Assembly (NCBI GenBank): GCA_902788555.1
Contig: CADAKQ010000022.1
Location: 1 to 40,293 of the forward strand
Origin: an uncultured Lachnospiraceae bacterium
GTDB taxonomy: Bacteria; Bacillota; Clostridia; Lachnospirales; Lachnospiraceae
Direction: 5' to 3'
DNA length: 40,293 nt
Within the stretch, counting starts at the first letter, position 1, and each line of letters begins with the position of its first letter. A program made the translations under genes and the position numbers. This document shows positions 11,598 through 27,147 of this stretch, one piece after another. The notes beneath the pieces were generated by a model. That model searched no databases. It was not told where the DNA came from and saw only the letters and a list, made by a program, of their open reading frames with translations.

Positions 11598-11885
11598 ATG
11601 GCACAGGTAAATTTTAGAGTAGATGATAATATTAAGGTACAGGCTGAAAGTATATGTGAAAATATGGGGATGAATATGTCTACAGCATTGAATATATTTT
11701 TAGCAAAGCTGGTAAATGAAAGAAGGATACCTTTTGAAGTATCAGTTGGTTCAAATTATGTATCCAATATGACTAAGGATGAAGCTATACAAATATTTAT
11801 GCAAAAGATGAAAGCTGCTGAAGATTCCGTGGCAAGAGGGGAGTATGTAGATTCAGAGCAAGCGCATAAGATATTGGGAGTATAG
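11598..11885 (+). CDS. RelB/DinJ-family antitoxin
   Basis: A 95-residue protein with an N-terminal ribbon-helix-helix domain (MAQVNFRVDDNIKVQAE, then MNMSTALNIFLAKLV) characteristic of RelB/DinJ antitoxins. The acidic C-terminus (about residues 60-95) would wrap the toxin. AAAGGTGG (11581-11588) precedes the ATG. It is followed after 1 nt by a small basic/aromatic partner, which supports a type II toxin-antitoxin pair. Confidence 0.85.
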   Translation: MAQVNFRVDDNIKVQAESICENMGMNMSTALNIFLAKLVNERRIPFEVSVGSNYVSNMTKDEAIQIFMQKMKAAEDSVARGEYVDSEQAHKILGV

Positions 11886-11886
11886 T

Positions 11887-12231
11887 ATGAAAAGAGTAAT
11901 TTATTCGAATATTGTAATAAATAAATTACAAATATTAAGTGAATATCTAACAAATGCTTTTGGAGAAAAGACAGAGAAAAGGGTTTTAGCTGATATTTTG
12001 AAACAGTTAGATAATTTGGGATTTGTATCTGTTGGAGCATCTATAAAAGAGCAATATGGTGTAGAGTGTGATTATTATTATATCTATATTGACAAAAACT
12101 ATTTTATTTTTGTGAGTGATGAAGAGAAAGTTCAGATAATAGAAATGTTTAATGAAAAAGAAGATTTTATTTATGTTATGTTTGGGCTATCAATGAGAAG
12201 TCAGGAGTCAGTAGATTATTGGGGTGAATAA
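11887..12231 (+). CDS. RelE/ParE-type toxin
   Basis: A 114-residue protein starting MKRVIYSNIVINKLQILSEYL, resembling the N-terminal beta-strand and helices of RelE/ParE toxins. A central YYYIYIDKNYFIFVSDEEKVQIIEMF stretch and the ending FGLSMRSQESVDYWGE fit the family's C-terminal strands. It should inhibit translation or gyrase when free of antitoxin; which one cannot be told. The start is 1 nt after the antitoxin stop. Its 3' end overlaps the convergent WYL gene by 16 bp. Confidence 0.75.
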   Translation: MKRVIYSNIVINKLQILSEYLTNAFGEKTEKRVLADILKQLDNLGFVSVGASIKEQYGVECDYYYIYIDKNYFIFVSDEEKVQIIEMFNEKEDFIYVMFGLSMRSQESVDYWGE

Positions 12232-13235
12232 AAATTATTCTTTTGTCTTCTAAGCCTCTCCTCAAGCAATCTTAAAAAATGTTCATTTCCTACCACACGT
12301 ATAGCCGGTCCAAATGAGAGTACCTCTATCAAAAGCTCGGTTTCGTTGCTTTTGTTATAGAATATCTCGCATTTGTAGGTGGCATCATCTATGCGTGTGG
12401 TGTTCTTTTTGTAATTGGCGAATTGGAGCATGGCTCTCTCTAAAGCATTACGCTCGTTTTTTATAATGAGTGTTACCGGCTCGCTGTGATAACCCTTTGT
12501 GATGTATGTGTCAATATCATAACAGGAAGCAGTATTATCAAATTTGTCTGATTCCTTATCAAAACCGGGAGCATCTGAAGCATATTTCCCGGTCTCTGTA
12601 ATCTCACTTATCCTTGATAAATTAATTACATAAAATCTGTCCTGACTTCTGCCTCTGCTTTCGATAGCAAGCAGGCGGAAGCAGTTATTTCTTACAGAGT
12701 ATTCTAATTTGCAGGGCAGATAGTGGAAATGTACACGCTTATTTACATGAGACTGAAAGGTTATGTCAAGGAACTGTCCTTCCTTGATAGCATTAAGTAT
12801 AGTCCGAAAATGGGTGCGGTATGTGTCATCAGCATAGTTATCTCCGTCAGCGAAGCTGTCATATATATAGAAATCCTCCTGTTTAAACAAAGGCTCTATA
12901 TCGGACAGCGCATTTCTTAATGTGTCAAGCTGCTCATTCGTGAAGAAAAGCTGTATCCTCTCATCTGCGAGGATTGCCTTTAGCCAGCGTTTTTGCAGTA
13001 ATGACAGGACAATCGGAGGCTCACTGTCTAAGGTTGATACATATAAATCCTCTGCCTTCTCAAAGAAAGACCATTCACCGCTTGCAAGCTTAGGAGCAAG
13101 ATAAAGAGAGGTTTCAAAAAAGCCGTCCTTCGTTATCGCAGCCTCAAGCTCTGCTTTGGATATGGCTTTATTACCTCTTAGCATATCTTTAATTATATTG
13201 TAGTAGCAGTTGTAAATCTCTGAAAAAAGCTGCAT
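12216..13235 (-). CDS. WYL-domain protein (second gene of pair)
   Basis: A 339-residue protein with a WYL domain in the middle (about residues 135-225: ITFQSHVNKRVHFHYLPCKLEY, FRLLAIESRGRSQDRFYVINLSRI) and a WCX-like C-terminal region (about 245-335). The N-terminal 110 residues are helical but show no clear winged helix, so DNA binding may come from its partner. WYL domains sense ligands, often nucleic-acid related, and control defence or RNA-repair loci. The start ATG is 3 nt after the upstream gene's stop, and the AAGGAG ribosome site overlaps that stop codon, so translation is probably coupled. Confidence 0.8.
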   Translation of the reverse strand: MQLFSEIYNCYYNIIKDMLRGNKAISKAELEAAITKDGFFETSLYLAPKLASGEWSFFEKAEDLYVSTLDSEPPIVLSLLQKRWLKAILADERIQLFFTNEQLDTLRNALSDIEPLFKQEDFYIYDSFADGDNYADDTYRTHFRTILNAIKEGQFLDITFQSHVNKRVHFHYLPCKLEYSVRNNCFRLLAIESRGRSQDRFYVINLSRISEITETGKYASDAPGFDKESDKFDNTASCYDIDTYITKGYHSEPVTLIIKNERNALERAMLQFANYKKNTTRIDDATYKCEIFYNKSNETELLIEVLSFGPAIRVVGNEHFLRLLEERLRRQKNNFYSPQ

Positions 13236-13238
13236 AAT

Positions 13239-14612
13239 CTACTCCTTTATCCCATACATTTCATAAAGTGAATCTATATCATTGTAAAAATGCTTACGAA
13301 GCAGGCGGTTTTCTGCTCCGACATTCTGCTCATTATCCATAGTGTAAAATCTTATATCAATTATTCTGCCTATAAAGGTTCTAAGCCAAGGGAACATTTC
13401 ATTTGCATCAAATACCACCTTCTCATAGCAAAATGTGTTGTCAGCAAGCTTGGTTATGGTACCGCCCTTGCCTTCGCGTCTTAGGCGTACGAGTATATAT
13501 TGCGCCCATCTTTCATCAATGTGTAGTGTAAGAACCACCTTCGTCTTTGAACCCCCGAAGGACACGCCCCAGACATAAGGGATATTCTGATTTAATTTCT
13601 CTTCCATATCGGGAAATGCTTCGGCAGCAGCTTCTATCTGAGCCCATTTCTTTTCATCCGTATCGTGGGAAGTAAGTCGTATGACAGATTTAATCTGGTC
13701 TAATCGGGCGCATTGAAGCTTTAATTTAGGTGGTGTGTTATCGATGTATTGTTTTGAATTGTTTTTTTCATTCTTTATAAGGTACATACAGACATATCTT
13801 CTGCCTGTTTTCGTGCTTACGAATATTTTAAGAGGAAATCCGCAGAGTGTCTTAGATTTTCCTTCCTGTCTGTTGCTTACAATCTCCAATCTTACATAAG
13901 CTCTGTCTTCCTTTGCACTAAGCAGAGCATAGACAATTTCTTCCTCCAGGGTAAATGTTGGAAAGCCATGCTTTATGCGGAAGATATGATTTTCATTATG
14001 TATACTGCTTAGGATTGTGTCGCCGACATAGCAAAAGGGACTGTCAAGCTGCATGAGCTTTATGGCATCTGACAATGATTCTGCTGTGTCTTCCGAACAT
14101 AATTCGCTCCAAGTAAGACCAAGCATGTATAATAAGGTCTTTCCCTGCTTTTTGGCAATAAGCAGACCTTCTTCTACATATTCATTACATTTTCTTCTGA
14201 CAAGCTGAGTATCGACTGCAAGCTCATAGTCAGTTGATAAAATGTCTGCAAGCTCATTTGCAGAAAGTGCTTCATCATGTAGCGCATCCAATATATAAAA
14301 ATGCAGCAGCATATCATTATCCGTGAAGCTCTTCGTCTTCCAGACTGCAAAGAGCGGATTCGTGTCAAGCAGATTACTGTCCATCTGAAGTGAGATATTC
14401 TTGACCTTGCCACGAGAGCTTTGGTCTGTCAAATCCTCAACTACATAGTCACCCAGCCAGCTTGTGATACGTCTTCTCTCGTCATCATAGGTACGGGCAC
14501 TCTTCTTATCCGAAGTAAAATCCTGTCTGCTCTTAAAACCGTATACAAAGAAATCCCGCACATAGTCGCGACATTTGCTGAAATTTTTTATAAGCTCCTG
14601 AAATTCTGCCAT
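13239..14612 (-). CDS. WYL-domain transcription factor (first gene of pair)
   Basis: A 457-residue regulator. Residues about 95-165 contain a winged-helix-like segment (FYILDALHDEALSANELADILSTDY, LVRRKCNEYVEEGLLI). A WYL domain follows (about 245-320) and then a WCX domain (about 360-430). GAGGG precedes the ATG, and a TTGACT-17-TAAAAT promoter lies upstream. It is transcribed divergently from the tRNA-like RNAs and the Ro60-like gene, with about 190 bp between this start and the first RNA structure. I infer that the WYL pair regulates those genes, possibly by sensing RNA ends or nucleotides. Confidence 0.8.
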   Translation of the reverse strand: MAEFQELIKNFSKCRDYVRDFFVYGFKSRQDFTSDKKSARTYDDERRRITSWLGDYVVEDLTDQSSRGKVKNISLQMDSNLLDTNPLFAVWKTKSFTDNDMLLHFYILDALHDEALSANELADILSTDYELAVDTQLVRRKCNEYVEEGLLIAKKQGKTLLYMLGLTWSELCSEDTAESLSDAIKLMQLDSPFCYVGDTILSSIHNENHIFRIKHGFPTFTLEEEIVYALLSAKEDRAYVRLEIVSNRQEGKSKTLCGFPLKIFVSTKTGRRYVCMYLIKNEKNNSKQYIDNTPPKLKLQCARLDQIKSVIRLTSHDTDEKKWAQIEAAAEAFPDMEEKLNQNIPYVWGVSFGGSKTKVVLTLHIDERWAQYILVRLRREGKGGTITKLADNTFCYEKVVFDANEMFPWLRTFIGRIIDIRFYTMDNEQNVGAENRLLRKHFYNDIDSLYEMYGIKE

Positions 14613-14660
14613 GATATCCCTCGAATTAACAGTAAAACTAAAACAATCAGATACATATTT

Positions 14661-14689
14661 ATTTTAAGGTTGTAATAAAGAAAAGTCAA
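14661..14689 (-). promoter_or_regulatory. promoter of the WYL gene pair
   Basis: On the minus strand TTGACT (14684-14689) and TAAAAT (14661-14666) are separated by 17 bp and point into the WYL genes. On the opposite strand I find TATTAT at 14742-14747 ahead of the RNA structures but no well-spaced -35 box. That would fit an activator-dependent promoter. Confidence 0.6.
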
Positions 14690-14777
14690 CTTGTGAAAAT
14701 GATTCGCAGATTTTTTGAAATGATAAATTTTGGTAATTGTTTTATTATGGGCACATAAGGAAGAAAAAACAAGAAAA

Positions 14778-14800
14778 GCTGTGAGCTTATGGCTCACAGC
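14778..14800 (+). ncRNA. leader hairpin of the tRNA-like RNA region
   Basis: A perfect 9-bp stem, GCTGTGAGC (14778-14786) with GCTCACAGC (14792-14800), closes a five-base loop just before the tRNA-like acceptor stem. It is followed by the GATAGC that leads into the acceptor. It may be part of the same RNA or a processing signal. Confidence 0.5.
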
Positions 14801-14805
14801 GATAG

Positions 14806-14915
14806 CGTGAGGTAGCTCAAGAGGTAGAGCACATCAAAAATGAATCATGTAAAGTGATTCTAACAGCGATAATCTTTGGATTATGGTGTTGCGGGTTCGA
14901 ATCCCGTCCTCACGA
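14806..14915 (+). ncRNA. tRNA-like / Y-RNA-like noncoding RNA 1
   Basis: The elements read in tRNA order. A 7-bp acceptor stem CGTGAGG (14806-14812) pairs with CCTCACG (14908-14914), with discriminator A14915. The D arm is GCTC-AAGAGGTA-GAGC (14815-14830). The T arm is GCGGG-TTCGAAT-CCCGT (14891-14907). The anticodon arm is replaced by an insertion: ACATC (14831-14835) can pair with GGTGT (14885-14889), enclosing two hairpins, GAATCA/TGATTC with a 7-nt loop (14842-14860) and ATAATC/GATTAT (14869-14884). No CCA is encoded. Bacterial Y RNAs carry tRNA-mimicking modules and bind Ro60-type proteins, and such a gene lies 260 bp downstream. It is not an ordinary tRNA: the D arm is separated from the anticodon-like hairpin by 11 nt and U33 is missing. 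Confidence 0.7.
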
Positions 14916-14969
14916 CTCGGTCGGTGCTAAAAGCTTGCCACCGGCAAGCAGCACCCCGTCCTCACGACT
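14903..14969 (+). repeat. 15-nt direct repeat of the tRNA-like 3' end
   Basis: CCCGTCCTCACGACT occurs at 14903-14917 and again at 14955-14969, flanking the strong hairpin. Each copy contains the 3' strands of the T stem and the acceptor stem, so the 5' acceptor strand CGTGAGG can pair with either. Confidence 0.85.
14923..14955 (+). ncRNA. strong hairpin after tRNA-like RNA 1
   Basis: GGTGCT (14923-14928) pairs with AGCACC (14950-14955) and GCTTGCC (14933-14939) with GGCAAGC (14943-14949), with AAAA bulged on one side. No U-run follows. Right after it comes a second copy of the 15-nt tRNA-like 3' end (14955-14969). Confidence 0.6.
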
Positions 14970-14971
14970 TG

Positions 14972-15149
14972 GGATGCTGACAGCAAAAAACCAAGATGAC
15001 TGTTAATCATAAGAAAAATGCATCCTGTAAAGAGGTGGCCGGCTTATAGGAATGCCGGCCGATATGTGACACTGACAGCGATAAAAATATTGGCAAATAT
15101 CGGTTCGAATCCGGTCGCATGGCTTGCCATGTCGGTAAAATGTGTCATG
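14972..15149 (+). ncRNA. tRNA-like / Y-RNA-like noncoding RNA 2
   Basis: A second structured stretch. GGATGC (14972-14977) pairs with GCATCC (15020-15025). A 7-bp GC-rich hairpin, GGCCGGC/GCCGGCC, spans 15037-15060. An outer stem (15065-15072 with 15142-15149, two G-U pairs) encloses the motif ACAGCGATA, a small hairpin, a second T arm (ATCGG-TTCGAAT-CCGGT, 15099-15115) and a CATGG/CCATG hairpin (15118-15131). No D arm is visible. The end-to-end stem enclosing a T-arm module recalls bacterial Y RNAs. It ends 28 nt before the Ro60-like start codon, so it may be cut from that gene's 5' leader. Exact ends are unknown. Confidence 0.5.
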
Positions 15150-15177
15150 AATGATAGTTATGAGAGAGGTGTAGAAA

Positions 15178-16671
15178 ATGAGATTTGTAGAATTATTAAA
15201 GAGAGAATCAAAGTGGACAAAGACTGAGAACGGTGCGGCTGCACTTGCCACAACAGGCACAGCATGTCTTGATTTATTTGGCACTATAGGTGCTTTAAGA
15301 GAGGCAGATGATACAAGAATAAACGGTCTTTTCGCCGAGGCATATCGTGAAAATCCTTTGATGGCAACAAAGATTGCATTTTATGCAAGAGATATAAGAG
15401 AAGGATTGGGTGAGCGTAGAGCGTTCAGAAGCATAATCAAGTATATGGCGGTATATCATCCGGAGGCTTTGAGAAATAACCTTGCACTTATAGGTTTATA
15501 TGGCAGATATGATGACCTTTACACATTGATAGGCACTCCTCTTGAAGAGGAAATGTGGGAGGTTATGAAGGAGCAGTTCGAAGCTGACCGTATAGCTCTT
15601 GAAAAGGGTGAACCTGTTTCACTACTTGCAAAGTGGATTAAGACTGCTGACGCAAGCTCTGAGAATACGAGAAGACTTGGTATATTGACTGCGAAGAAGC
15701 TTGGTTATTCGGTCTATGACTTCAAGCGTATAGTGCGTGCAATGCGTAAGGAGATAGGCATTGTAGAGGCTAAGATGTCAGCAAATGAATGGGAGGAAAT
15801 CACCTACAATGCTGTACCATCAAGAGCTATGATGATATATAGAAATGCATTTACAAGACATGACGAGGCGCGTTTTACAGAATACATACATAAGGCTGTT
15901 GCAGGCGAGGAAACCATACATACAGCGACACTTTATCCATATGACATCGTAGAAAAGTTCCTTGATAAGTTTTACTATGGTGCAAAGAATGAGCTTACAA
16001 AGCAGGAAAAGCAGGTACTTGAGGCACAGTGGAGACAGCTTCCTGACTATGTGGGTGAGGGAATAAATGCGATTGTTATGGCGGATGTGTCGGGCTCGAT
16101 GATGTGCTCAAATGGAAGACCTATGGCATCCTCTATAGGACTTGCGATGTACTTTGCAGAACATAACAGAGGAGATTATCATAATCTTTTCATGACATTT
16201 AGTGCTAATCCTCAGATTGTTTCACTTCGCGGTGAAACACTTGAGCAAAAGATAAAATTCATAAATAAGGCAGAGTGGGGTATGAATACAAACCTTAAGG
16301 CAGCATTTGAAAAGGTGCTTGCCATAGCGGTTGAGAATCATACACCTACAGAGGATATGCCAAAGTCCATTATTGTTATATCCGATATGGAGATAGACAG
16401 ATGTGGAGACAAGGATTGGACATTCTACGATCAGATGCGTGCTGAGTACAGATACTACGGATATGAGATTCCAAATGTAGTATTCTGGAATGTGAACAGC
16501 AGAAATGATGTTTTCCATGCAGATGCAGGAAGACAGGGCGTGCAGCTTGTATCAGGTCAGTCCGCAGCAACCTTCAAGCAATTGATGCAGACTGTGGGCA
16601 TGACTCCGACGGAGGCTATGGAGTATGTAATATGTTCTGACAGATATGAACCAATAACATTAAGTGCTTAA
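15178..16671 (+). CDS. Ro60/TROVE-like protein with vWA domain (DUF2828-like)
   Basis: A 497-residue protein. Residues about 15-280 form helical repeats like the RNA-binding ring of Ro60/Rsr, with motifs NPLMATKIAFYARDIREGLGER, GLYGRYDDL and NAVPSRAMMIYRNAFTRHD. Residues about 295-490 form a von Willebrand A domain with a complete MIDAS start, Asp303-x-Ser305-x-Ser307 in MADVSGSM, and ISDMEID further on. Ro60 proteins bind Y RNAs and misfolded RNA; DUF2828 proteins share this layout and may be the better family name. GAGAGGTG precedes the ATG. It lies directly downstream of two tRNA-like RNAs and divergent from a WYL pair, as in RNA-repair loci, but no rtcB or rtcA is in view. A terminator follows. 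Confidence 0.8.
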   Translation: MRFVELLKRESKWTKTENGAAALATTGTACLDLFGTIGALREADDTRINGLFAEAYRENPLMATKIAFYARDIREGLGERRAFRSIIKYMAVYHPEALRNNLALIGLYGRYDDLYTLIGTPLEEEMWEVMKEQFEADRIALEKGEPVSLLAKWIKTADASSENTRRLGILTAKKLGYSVYDFKRIVRAMRKEIGIVEAKMSANEWEEITYNAVPSRAMMIYRNAFTRHDEARFTEYIHKAVAGEETIHTATLYPYDIVEKFLDKFYYGAKNELTKQEKQVLEAQWRQLPDYVGEGINAIVMADVSGSMMCSNGRPMASSIGLAMYFAEHNRGDYHNLFMTFSANPQIVSLRGETLEQKIKFINKAEWGMNTNLKAAFEKVLAIAVENHTPTEDMPKSIIVISDMEIDRCGDKDWTFYDQMRAEYRYYGYEIPNVVFWNVNSRNDVFHADAGRQGVQLVSGQSAATFKQLMQTVGMTPTEAMEYVICSDRYEPITLSA

Positions 16672-16678
16672 GGTAAAG

Positions 16679-16706
16679 GGCACCGCTTTAGGGCGGTGTC
16701 TTTTTT
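16679..16706 (+). terminator. intrinsic terminator after the Ro60-like gene
   Basis: GGCACCGC (16679-16686) pairs with GCGGTGTC (16693-16700), eight base pairs with one G-U, followed by TTTTTT (16701-16706) and further T's. Confidence 0.85.
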
Positions 16707-16800
16707 ACTTTTTGATAAATGATAAAATTATATAGAAAAATACATAGAATAGTGGTAAAATAACAGATATATTACGCAGGGGATAAGGAGAGAATTTACA

Positions 16801-24138: not shown

Positions 24139-25650
24139 ATGTATAATGTATCAGACTACTTGAAAAACTCGGCTGAAAAATACGATGATAAAATTGCAGT
24201 TATTGAAGAGGATAAGAGTATAACTTATTCGGAGTTTAATGATAGATGTAAGAGGGTCGGATCATTTCTTGGTTTAAGGTCTTTCTTTAATGAACCCATT
24301 ATTATATTTATGGACAAGTGCATAGATACACTCACGGCTTTTTTTGGAGCAGTTTATGCGGGATGTTTTTACTCGCTTGTGAATCCGGAGCTTCCCCCAA
24401 ATCGAATTGGTTCGATTAGGGAGGTTTTAAGGTCGCGCGTGGTGATAACTGATGAGGAGCATATGACGCTTGCAAAGGAGCTTTTTGGCGGTCTTAATAT
24501 ATATGATATCAGAGAGCTTATAAAGACTGATATAAATGAGGAAGCGCTTGCTGCGGCAGAAAAAATGCATATAGACACAGATCCTCTTTACGTTAATTTT
24601 ACATCGGGTTCAACCGGAATTCCAAAGGGTGTTGCTATCTCCCATCGCTCGGTTATAGAGTTTATAGATATATTTACGAAGCAGTTTGGATTTAAGAATG
24701 AAGATATAATCGCCAATCAGGCACCCTTTGATTTTGACGTTTCTGTGAAGGATATTTTTTCCTCTATAAAAATGGGTGCAACACTTGTTATAATACCTAA
24801 GAGGTATTTTTCAAGCCCGGCGGCACTGCTCGACTATATATGCGACAATAAGGCGACCACCCTTACCTGGGCGGTATCTGCACTTTGCCTGGTTACCACC
24901 TTTCACGGACTTGATTATAAGGTTCCTGAAACGGTTGAAAAGGTACTTTTCAGCGGAGAGGTTATGCCGGTTAAGCATCTTAAGCAGTGGATGGAGCATT
25001 TGCCAAAGGCAACTTTTGTGAATCTTTACGGACCGACGGAAATCACATGTAACTGTACCTATCATGTAATCGACAGAAGCAGGGATTACGACGGCAAGCT
25101 TCCGATAGGCAAAGCATTTCCGAATGAGCGTGTCTACCTTATGGACGAGGGGGGACATATTATAAATGAGCCGGATAAGACGGGAGAAATCTGCATCGCC
25201 GGAACCTCTGTCGGACTTGGCTATTACAATAATGATGAGCAGACAGAGAAAGCATTTACAATTAATCCGAATGTAAAGGGCTACGGCGAGCTTATATATA
25301 AGACGGGCGACCTTGGATACTACAATGAGGCAGGCGAGATAATGTTTAACGGCAGGAAGGATTTTCAGATTAAGTATCAGGGCCACAGAATTGAGCTTGA
25401 AGAGGTGGATAAGGCGATTATGGAGGTGCCGGAGGTCGTTAGAAGCTGCACCATATTTGATGAGGAAAAATCAAAGCTTTATGGCTTTTACATAGGCGAT
25501 ATAGATAAAAAGGAGCTTAATGCAAGGCTTCGTGAAACCATGCCTGTATATATGATGCCGACCTTTCTTATACAGAGGGAGGAATTCCCGATGACGAAAA
25601 ACGGCAAGATAGACCGAAAGAAGCTTATGGAAGAGAGAAAGAAAAAGTAA
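24139..25650 (+). CDS. stand-alone amino-acid adenylation enzyme (DltA-like)
   Basis: A 503-residue ANL-superfamily enzyme with all adenylation motifs: A3 NFTSGSTGIPKGV (153-165), A4 APFDFDVSV (195-203, amino-group-binding Asp200), A5 NLYGPTEITCNCTY, A7 YKTGDLG, A8 GRKDFQIKYQGHRIELEEVD and A10 MTKNGKIDRK with the catalytic Lys. It would activate an amino acid and load it on the carrier protein encoded at 27416. It resembles DltA, which loads D-alanine, but the position of DltA's selectivity cysteine (FCGEVLP) is Ser272 here (FSGEVMP), so the substrate is probably different. It is first in a five-gene dlt-like operon. A TATAAT box at 24040-24045 is a candidate -10, without a good -35. The ribosome site is weak. 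Confidence 0.85.
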   Translation: MYNVSDYLKNSAEKYDDKIAVIEEDKSITYSEFNDRCKRVGSFLGLRSFFNEPIIIFMDKCIDTLTAFFGAVYAGCFYSLVNPELPPNRIGSIREVLRSRVVITDEEHMTLAKELFGGLNIYDIRELIKTDINEEALAAAEKMHIDTDPLYVNFTSGSTGIPKGVAISHRSVIEFIDIFTKQFGFKNEDIIANQAPFDFDVSVKDIFSSIKMGATLVIIPKRYFSSPAALLDYICDNKATTLTWAVSALCLVTTFHGLDYKVPETVEKVLFSGEVMPVKHLKQWMEHLPKATFVNLYGPTEITCNCTYHVIDRSRDYDGKLPIGKAFPNERVYLMDEGGHIINEPDKTGEICIAGTSVGLGYYNNDEQTEKAFTINPNVKGYGELIYKTGDLGYYNEAGEIMFNGRKDFQIKYQGHRIELEEVDKAIMEVPEVVRSCTIFDEEKSKLYGFYIGDIDKKELNARLRETMPVYMMPTFLIQREEFPMTKNGKIDRKKLMEERKKK

Positions 25651-25884: not shown

Positions 25885-27147
25885 ATGATAGATAATGAAA
25901 AGGTTATAAGGGAAATCGGCACACCGACCTATGTATATGATGTTGCCGCTATCCTTGACAGAATTAAATACCTTAGAGGCAAGCTGGATGCCGATATTCT
26001 CTATGCGGTCAAGGCAAACTCCTTTATCGTAAAGGAGATAGAGGAAGAGATAGACGGCTACGAGATATGTTCAAAGGGCGAGTTCGACATTTGCAACAGC
26101 CTTGACATAAATCGTGGTAAAATGGTTATATCCGGCGTGCATAAGGACAGACCGTCAATAGAAGAGATGCTGGAGTCCTATGACGATATCCGCAAATATA
26201 CCATTGAGTCCTTAAATCAGTGGGAGCTTCTTACGGATGTTGCTAAAAACTGCGGTCGTCACATACATGCTTTGATAAGGCTTACTTCAGGTAATCAGTT
26301 CGGCGTGTGTGAGGAGGATTTAAAATATATCATCGCTCATAACGATGAGGCAGTTATAGAGATTGACGGAATAGAGTATTTTTCGGGTACACAGAAGCAC
26401 TCGATTAAAAAAATAAATAAAGAAGCGGATAAGCTTATAACACTTATCGATACCCTACGCGTGGAGCTTGGCTTTACCGTAAGGGAAATTGAGTACGGTC
26501 CCGGACTTCCTATATTTTACTATCAGGGAGAGGAATTTGATGAGGAGGCCTTTTTAGATGAAGTAAAACTCGCCCTCGACAGGATTAAGGAAAAGGGCGT
26601 TAAGCTATCCTTGGAGGTTGGACGAAGTCTTGTTGCCACCTCCGGCAGATATTACACAAGCATAGGCGACATGAAGTCCAACAAAAACGGAAACTTTGTT
26701 ATATTGGACGGTGGCATCAACCATCTTGTATATTACGGCGGAACGCTCGGTATGAGAATACCACATTTTCAGGTAGTAAGAGTTACGGAGGATGAGGCTG
26801 TTAATCTGAATGATGAAAAAAAGATTGAAAAGCTGAATAAATCTGTTGATGAGATACCAAAAGAACTGCTTGTCGGAACCGAGGATGAAAATGGTTTAAT
26901 TACATATAATTTACATGGCTCACTTTGCACAGTAAATGACATCCTTGTGAAGAATATTAATTCAAGGAGACTTAAACTTGGTGATGTATTCATATTTGAA
27001 AATGTAGGTGCATATTCATCCACCGAGGGTATCTCGCTTTTCTTAAGCCGTGACCTGCCGAAAATCGCCCTATGTGATAAGGAAGGTAACCTTAGAGTTG
27101 TTCGAGAAGTAATCAAGACCAGTAACATTAATTTACCTCGGTATTGA
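25885..27147 (+). CDS. fold-type III PLP decarboxylase (LysA/BtrK-like)
   Basis: A 420-residue alanine-racemase-fold PLP enzyme of the diaminopimelate/ornithine decarboxylase group. PLP-binding Lys43 lies in LYAVKANSF, a phosphate-binding glycine stretch in EYGPGLPIFY (203-212) and the EPGR-equivalent in LEVGRSLV. Cys348 and Asp352 in HGSLCTVND and Tyr377 in NVGAYSS match the decarboxylase active site. GGAGG precedes the ATG. Free-amino-acid LysA is one possibility. However, its place between an adenylation enzyme and a carrier protein recalls BtrK of butirosin synthesis, which decarboxylates a glutamyl group while it is bound to a carrier protein. I favour a carrier-bound substrate, as an inference. 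Confidence 0.8.
   Translation: MIDNEKVIREIGTPTYVYDVAAILDRIKYLRGKLDADILYAVKANSFIVKEIEEEIDGYEICSKGEFDICNSLDINRGKMVISGVHKDRPSIEEMLESYDDIRKYTIESLNQWELLTDVAKNCGRHIHALIRLTSGNQFGVCEEDLKYIIAHNDEAVIEIDGIEYFSGTQKHSIKKINKEADKLITLIDTLRVELGFTVREIEYGPGLPIFYYQGEEFDEEAFLDEVKLALDRIKEKGVKLSLEVGRSLVATSGRYYTSIGDMKSNKNGNFVILDGGINHLVYYGGTLGMRIPHFQVVRVTEDEAVNLNDEKKIEKLNKSVDEIPKELLVGTEDENGLITYNLHGSLCTVNDILVKNINSRRLKLGDVFIFENVGAYSSTEGISLFLSRDLPKIALCDKEGNLRVVREVIKTSNINLPRY

Follow-up and report, generated by a model that had tools for sequence, protein, structure and literature searches.

How can a locus that encodes no ordinary tRNA hold several tRNA-like RNAs next to a gene for a Ro60-like protein, and what kind of system do these parts form? 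The question is raised by a stretch of 40,293 nucleotides from an uncultured Lachnospiraceae bacterium (GenBank assembly GCA_902788555.1, contig CADAKQ010000022.1, positions 1 to 40,293; hereafter the window), whose genome is incomplete (2.70 Mb, 54 contigs, 88.7% complete). In this window, a noncoding gap of 565 bp (14613-15177) separates the gene of a 457-amino-acid (aa) regulator (13239-14612, minus strand) from an open reading frame (ORF) encoding a protein with a von Willebrand factor A (vWA) domain (15178-16671, plus strand). The gap contains one tRNA-like RNA (element 1) and two further RNA elements (elements 2 and 3), all on the plus strand. We read the locus as a Ro60/Y-RNA-type ribonucleoprotein locus, with a probability of about 85%. 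By computation, one covarying docking stem is common to all three RNAs and accompanies the protein through Firmicutes and phages; the model of the vWA protein predicts a Ro60 fold with an intact metal site; and the flanking genes are identified computationally as WYL regulators.

The original prediction, made from the letters of the window, had placed a D arm, two T arms with the loop TTCGAAT, and a 7-bp acceptor stem in the 565-bp gap and had claimed that none of them makes a normal tRNA. All of these parts were found where they had been placed. The correction concerns their division, as they belong to three separate elements. ARAGORN called no tRNA in the window, and the Rfam search of the window gave no match to a described RNA family at the gathering score. 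With a lax threshold, only sX4 (E 0.67) and a scrap of a tmRNA T arm (E 0.35) appeared, and both were discarded. Given the ORF layout and the ARAGORN and Rfam results, ordinary tRNA, tmRNA, and coding sequence were rejected as explanations of the gap.

Element 1 (14806-14914) has the form of an unpermuted tRNA, consistent with the prediction that the RNA shape differs from the YrlA form. Its 7-bp acceptor stem (14806-14812/14908-14914) encloses a D arm (14815-14830), a docking hairpin (14842-14860) followed by TAACAGCGA, a hairpin resembling a variable arm (14869-14884), and a T arm with TTCGAAT (14891-14907). The Vienna centroid structure contains the acceptor, D, docking, and T stems (z -2.66). 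Element 2 (14970-15029) is closed by the docking stem GGATGC/GCATCC with ACAGCAA and carries an anticodon-arm-like hairpin, ATGA-CTGTTAA-TCAT (14996-15010), with the anticodon GUU of the Asn (GUU) type (Vienna z -2.17). In element 3 (15065-15151), the docking stem TGACAC/GTGTCA is accompanied by ACAGCGA, and the tRNA-like parts are limited to a D-loop-like TTGGCAA with its GG and a T arm with TTCGAAT (15099-15115); the T arm is missing from the minimum-energy fold. Ahead of element 1 lies a 9-bp hairpin, GCTGTGAGC-TTATG-GCTCACAGC (14778-14800, plus strand; fold z -5.04), which terminates in the docking-motif-like CACAGCGATAG and is retained with one change in the relative L044. The 3' end of element 1, CCCGTCCTCACGACT (14903-14917), recurs 52 bases on at 14955-14969, beyond a hairpin at 14924-14954. 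This repeat would represent a second acceptor strand and could compete for the same partner.

The docking stem is part of an element that is repeated upstream of related genes. Its stem has 6-7 bp; two bases and then ACAGCAA come after the 5' strand (consensus NGRYNC), and TG comes after the 3' strand. An initial descriptor, loose in both stem and motif, drowned in chance matches, and a stricter one was used. In the 22 loci of the family, the 32 kb upstream of the gene contained 41 matches (40 positions), compared to 22 in the other 355 kb; the upstream reverse strand gave 1 match and shuffles gave 0.35. A set of 156 further loci (77 bacterial and 79 viral contigs) had 321 matches (305 positions) in 181 kb upstream, compared to 151 in the other 1.43 Mb and 2 on the reverse strand. 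Motifs compatible with both strand orders, termed XY and YX, were counted as two matches, and positions were tallied separately. Four of the 160 fetched loci (L088, L090, L091, and L162) were dropped because their matches are cut at the contig start; L057 and L023 represent a single contig, and several of the phage loci hardly differ from one another. Within 1.5 kb upstream of the gene, the element was present in 138 of all 178 loci (130 with the XY and 51 with the YX order), comprising 80 of the 99 bacterial and 58 of the 79 viral ones. Isolates whose loci show elements include Clostridiaceae strain 1XD21-29 (L077) and strain D16-50 (L056). T arms showed the same orientation: within 1.2 kb upstream of the gene, the 156 loci had 306 in sense versus 1 on the reverse strand.

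The original prediction had named compensatory stem changes and co-occurrence with the protein as evidence in its favor, and both were found. In an alignment of 66 of the 95 compact elements listed (A5), the stem is 99.8% paired, with a covariation of 0.611 versus 0.235 after shuffling and at most 0.12 with slid partners. A covariance model (R1), built from these 66 elements with none from the window, recovered element 2 (51.3 bits, E 2.4e-10) and element 3 (33.4 bits, E 5e-6; all R1 E-values are rough) as the sole significant matches in the whole genome. Element 1 was not recovered (14.6 bits, E 0.18), because the model was built with the opposite strand order. Eleven of 200 genomes of the family were positive for R1 at E 0.01: 10 of the 22 genomes with a relative of the protein (own genome counted) versus 1 of the 178 others (Fisher p 3e-10). 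All 10 co-occurring matches lie on the protein's own contig just upstream of its gene. In the exception, G135, the element is located directly upstream of an RtcB gene and looks genuine, with D-arm-like, anticodon-arm-like, and T-arm parts. At L227 (2893-2990, minus strand), a docking element with the anticodon arm CTTCAGG (UCA), which we take to be selenocysteine-like, directly precedes RtcB; the fetched stretch holds no Ro-like gene. Of ten other loci with a DUF2828 gene, R1 matched eight with an E-value of at most 0.1, namely those of two genomes of the phylum and of six of eight named phages; phages AYO145A and Aeh1 gave no match at this threshold. The element adjoins the DUF2828 genes of phages LP-124, LeBron, the Felix-like AYO145A, EFDG1, FADO, CP81, and CF9. 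Around six TROVE matches of the phylum (flanks of about 1.5 kb), R1 found nothing.

The two strand orders correspond to two kinds of RNA. RNAs of the XY order have their ends closed by the docking stem. In the YX order, the 3' strand comes first, and next are a loop (for example, ATGTTTGT), the 5' strand, and ACAGCAA; the resulting hairpin is located within the anticodon branch of a tRNA-like RNA. The window's element 1 belongs to this group. After removal of exact duplicates, 61 YX hairpins were counted in 43 loci, and 58 of them have a T arm within 110 nt. All 58 of these tRNA-form RNAs (one of which, L080 at -116, is probably misassigned) have an acceptor stem of 6-7 bp at the right place, 56 with seven of seven pairs, compared to a mean of 10.8 and a maximum of 18 when the strands were dealt among the elements. 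By eye, the anticodon stem is kept around the insert in L125, L080, and L129, and no rule was seen by which removal of the insert as an intron would restore a constant anticodon loop. Among the XY elements with a T arm, 8 of 47 have a loop-closed acceptor (control mean 1.3, maximum 4; L045 is doubtful). These tRNA bodies occur in LeBron (L215 5526, a permuted tRNA form with closed acceptor), a Felix-like phage, EFDG1, FADO, and L116; the YrlA-like closed-acceptor form is thus found in few of these elements and is not the rule. In L116 (4700-5950), docking elements are scattered through an array of tRNA genes that look ordinary by eye; two of these elements contain a circularly permuted tRNA, and in one of the two the closing loop includes CCA.

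Anticodon arms are a further cargo. In 53 of 199 XY interiors (made non-redundant at 70%), a stem of at least 4 bp surrounds CTNNNAA, the canonical anticodon loop, versus 2 on the reverse strand, a mean of 1.0 and a maximum of 5 in shuffles, and 0 to 3 for four control loops. The 53 elements (29 bacterial, 24 viral) span 45 loci and display 22 different triplets, of which TTT (11), GTT (7), and GTA (5) are the commonest. A laxer loop pattern was found in 63 of the 199 interiors (7.3 in shuffles, 17 on the reverse strand). T arms were present in 37 of the 199 (0.29 in shuffles, 2 on the reverse strand), and 11 interiors had both an anticodon loop and a T arm. Computation places tRNA pieces among the cargoes of the docking stem: the acceptor-D-T body, the elbow, and the anticodon stem-loop.

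The protein encoded at 15178-16671 (plus strand, 497 aa) matches the Pfam families DUF2828, DUF7788 (a vWA domain with a metal ion-dependent adhesion site, MIDAS), and VWA_2 only. It had been described as TROVE/DUF2828-like with an intact MIDAS. The DUF2828 profile and the Ro60 fold bear this out, whereas a TROVE match by sequence is absent from the protein. Its predicted fold corresponds to Ro60 over the full length, with a ring of helical repeats and a vWA domain; by sequence, the match to solved structures is limited to the vWA part. The MIDAS residues D303, S305, S307, T371, and D403 are invariant across 65 sequences (alignment A2, which holds 64 relatives chosen out of 160; L115, with one stop codon, was omitted). 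The nearest named relatives are from Lachnospiraceae. The profile PHROG 850 covers residues 3-491, and 679 of 50,697 phage records carry a protein of this DUF2828 Ro-like family, including mycobacteriophage LeBron (37% identity over 99% of the query). PADLOC reported nothing for the protein. A full-length Ro60 fold in a gut-type Lachnospiraceae bacterium, as predicted here and missed by the TROVE profile, would enlarge the set of microbial Ro60 relatives.

The two regulators were predicted to be a divergent WYL pair. They are divergent from the vWA gene and co-directional with each other, and the WYL assignment agrees with PADLOC, relatives, and fold. The 339-aa protein (12216-13235, minus strand) is of the WYL/WCX type (PADLOC WYL E 1.5e-8); it is without any Pfam match, and its relatives contain WCX in 10 of 14 and WYL in 6 of 14 cases. 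The 457-aa protein gave nothing in PADLOC and, like its neighbor, no direct match to Pfam WYL; 5 of its 14 relatives contain WYL, and the top Foldseek matches of its low-confidence model (pLDDT 68.7) are the WYL proteins DriD, PafBC, CapW, and BrxR. DriD and PafBC are WYL activators with a role in DNA damage, and the DriD structures contain single-stranded DNA. Clusters of the flanking genes place the 457-aa regulator in 26 and the 339-aa regulator in 24 of the 178 loci, with 23 loci in common (window included).

Ahead of the RNAs lies a promoter- or operator-like site, TTCGCANNTTTTTTN(2-7)GATAA (the TTCGCA site; 14703-14726, plus strand). Among the 27 loci that have WYL-pair genes (window included), 7 show the pattern TTCGCANNTTTTTT...GATAA upstream, versus 2 of the 151 without such genes. 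The operator interpretation is weak, because the site is not universal among the WYL loci. A similar stretch of another kind (ACCACCGGTTGCTCGACA-like, by eye) precedes the RNAs in L039, L041, L042, and L043, where the TTCGCA site is missing, and is possibly another operator. A -10-like hexamer, TATTAT (14743-14748, plus strand), matches the consensus; in the promoter scan, promoter-like sites were no commoner than in shuffles. A Shine-Dalgarno-like AGAGAGGTG (15163-15171, plus strand) was read ahead of the vWA gene, and a GC-rich hairpin followed by a T run, a probable terminator, directly 3' of it (16675-16710). Beside the regulators (11598-12231), a RelB-type antitoxin (Pfam RelB) and a 114-aa ORF without Pfam match form a likely toxin-antitoxin pair.

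A link to RNA repair comes from the relatives. Of the 178 loci, 25 have a member of an RtcB cluster (representative L117, RtcB by Pfam) within flanks reaching 6 kb upstream and 8 kb downstream, and in 16 of these it immediately follows the Ro-like gene. In Listeria phage LP-124, an RtcB-like ligase is encoded 1.3 kb behind the DUF2828 gene.

In a mechanism modeled on Y RNAs, the RNAs would be transcribed from the site at 14703-14748 and, in the manner of Y RNAs with Ro60, bind the protein via the docking stem. The tRNA-like cargo might then recruit or trap tRNA enzymes (PNPase, RtcB, tRNA nucleases, or modifying enzymes), and the particle would thereby handle damaged tRNA. The WYL pair might switch the locus on in response to products of nucleic-acid damage, the role of RtcR in Salmonella; the WYL proteins would be damage sensors, and DriD and PafBC are among the best fold matches. 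With such a design, a cell may be able to sense, decoy, or repair tRNA that has been damaged. The Ro-type RNA-surveillance interpretation of the original prediction is supported, with RNA binding, transcription, and decoy function as its inferred parts.

Since the 138 loci counted above have the elements in sense shortly ahead of the gene, these might be cis-acting leaders, that is, T-box- or attenuator-like parts of the 5' untranslated region of the vWA mRNA that bind the vWA protein or tRNA and autoregulate this mRNA, and not free Y RNAs. We consider this improbable: the elements are downstream of the gene in LeBron, a Felix-like phage, and CF9 and are interspersed in a tRNA array in L116, several tRNA-like cargoes are possible at one locus, and the cargo changes while the docking stem is constant. 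Still far less probable is that T arms and anticodon loops are functionless remnants of decayed tRNA genes in a tRNA-rich spot. Some loci do lie among real tRNA genes, but the docking stem is compensated, the acceptor stems of the tRNA-form RNAs are all intact, and ARAGORN found 19 of 21 scanned family loci, like the window, free of tRNAs.

A tentative proposal, a special case of the Ro60/Y-RNA reading and not exclusive with it, is that the tRNA pieces of the particle capture anticodon nucleases, whether these belong to toxin-antitoxin, colicin, or anti-phage systems, and so spare the tRNAs, serving phages as counter-defence. The 22 triplets of the anticodon-arm-like loops, with UUU and GUU commonest, and the occurrence of the elements in phages with tRNA arrays are consistent with it, as is the suggestion that YrlA could competitively inhibit an anticodon nuclease (PMC7790460; this and the other articles with PMC numbers are cited from excerpts). 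However, YrlA itself was not cut by that nuclease (PMC7790460), 120 of the 199 interiors show neither an anticodon loop nor a T arm by the patterns used, and no nuclease gene was prominent among the flanking clusters inspected. One may go further and speculate that DUF2828-type Ro particles are programmable displays of tRNA fragments: a single docking stem, used in both circular permutations, would load the ring with a choice of tRNA bodies, elbows, and anticodon stem-loops of many identities. In bacteria these would be decoys or sensors for nucleases that cut tRNA, and in phages they would be a counter-defence; RtcB would repair the damage and WYL proteins would sense it. The evidence makes this possible without favoring it.

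Several observations weigh against the reading as a Ro60/Y-RNA-type locus or against parts of it. Against the anticodon arm of element 2, its minimum-energy fold pairs this stretch differently, and the close relative L044 reads CAGTCAA at the loop (by eye). Element 3 folds no better than shuffles (z -0.75). Neither upstream order was matched within 1.5 kb in 40 of the 178 loci (48 are without XY), and phage Aeh1 has a single match inside a coding region and none upstream. Because the descriptor requires pairing, the covariation is partly given by construction, and the weight therefore rests on the counts versus shuffles and versus the reverse strand. R1 had no match in 12 of the 22 protein-positive genomes of the family, which, with the strict filters of that search, is no proof of absence, and at least one R1-positive genome (G173, which holds the contig of L057) supplied training sequences. 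No RtcB was found in the whole genome (88.7% complete; RtcA was not searched), and TROVE matches in it numbered 0; the repair link thus rests on relatives. In Listeria phage cka15 (OR088597), the elements (25,287-25,553) lie 0.7 kb outside a transcription hot region (26,236-26,727), the only one of three with coordinates printed in the excerpt; a link between elements and transcription peaks was dropped as they do not overlap, and expression is not claimed.

The role of bacterial Ro60 particles is an old question, and the occurrence of both permutations and of dozens of anticodon stem-loops suggests that these particles deal with tRNA, perhaps with its damage. The docking-stem consensus enables searches for such RNAs and prediction of their cargo. 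In systems described earlier, the Y RNA tethers Rsr through its terminal stem and binds PNPase through its tRNA-like part (PMC8394870), the Salmonella RNA repair operon is switched on by tRNA fragments (PMC7790460), and some phages of a jumbo-phage survey have a TROVE protein with a tRNA-like partner (PMC7824862). Excerpts of the open-licence literature yielded no unpermuted Y RNAs, no anticodon stem-loop as Y RNA cargo, and no DUF2828 protein with RNAs; the term DUF2828 appeared there in four plant papers only.

The locus resembles the Rsr-YrlA systems of Deinococcus and Salmonella in the predicted Ro60 fold, the RNAs adjoining the gene, the terminal stem with a tRNA-like module of D, T, and acceptor arms, and the link to an RtcB operon (PMC8394870, PMC7790460). 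Of the features of YrlA-type Y RNAs, the stem joining 5' and 3' ends is found in elements 2 and 3 and the D/T/acceptor module in element 1. In contrast, the protein is a DUF2828 member without TROVE match, the docking consensus ACAGCAA was not seen by R1 near the TROVE genes, anticodon stem-loops occur as cargo, and a WYL pair replaces RtcR. The tRNA-form RNAs are unpermuted, whereas the YrlA crystal structure (6CU1) aligns to tRNA by circular permutation (PMC11472068); the permuted order with loop-closed acceptor, absent from element 1, exists in relatives. The rsr-yrlBA-rtcBA operon with RtcR likewise has a divergent regulator, a Ro-like protein, and Y RNAs, and RtcB is found in relatives of the locus; differences are the genome in which no RtcB was found and the WYL regulators, which appear DriD/PafBC-like. 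With the phage systems (LeBron, PHROG 850, and Listeria CKA15_055), the locus shares the protein family and the docking element, and it differs in being chromosomal, beside a WYL pair, and in its unpermuted element 1. The proposed distinct Ro-like family holds in part: judged by sequence, it is distinct from TROVE, yet its mycobacteriophage members are already annotated as "Ro-like RNA binding protein," and for Listeria phage CKA15, whose CKA15_055 was detected in purified virions, Rsr and Y RNAs have been proposed (PMC12282133).

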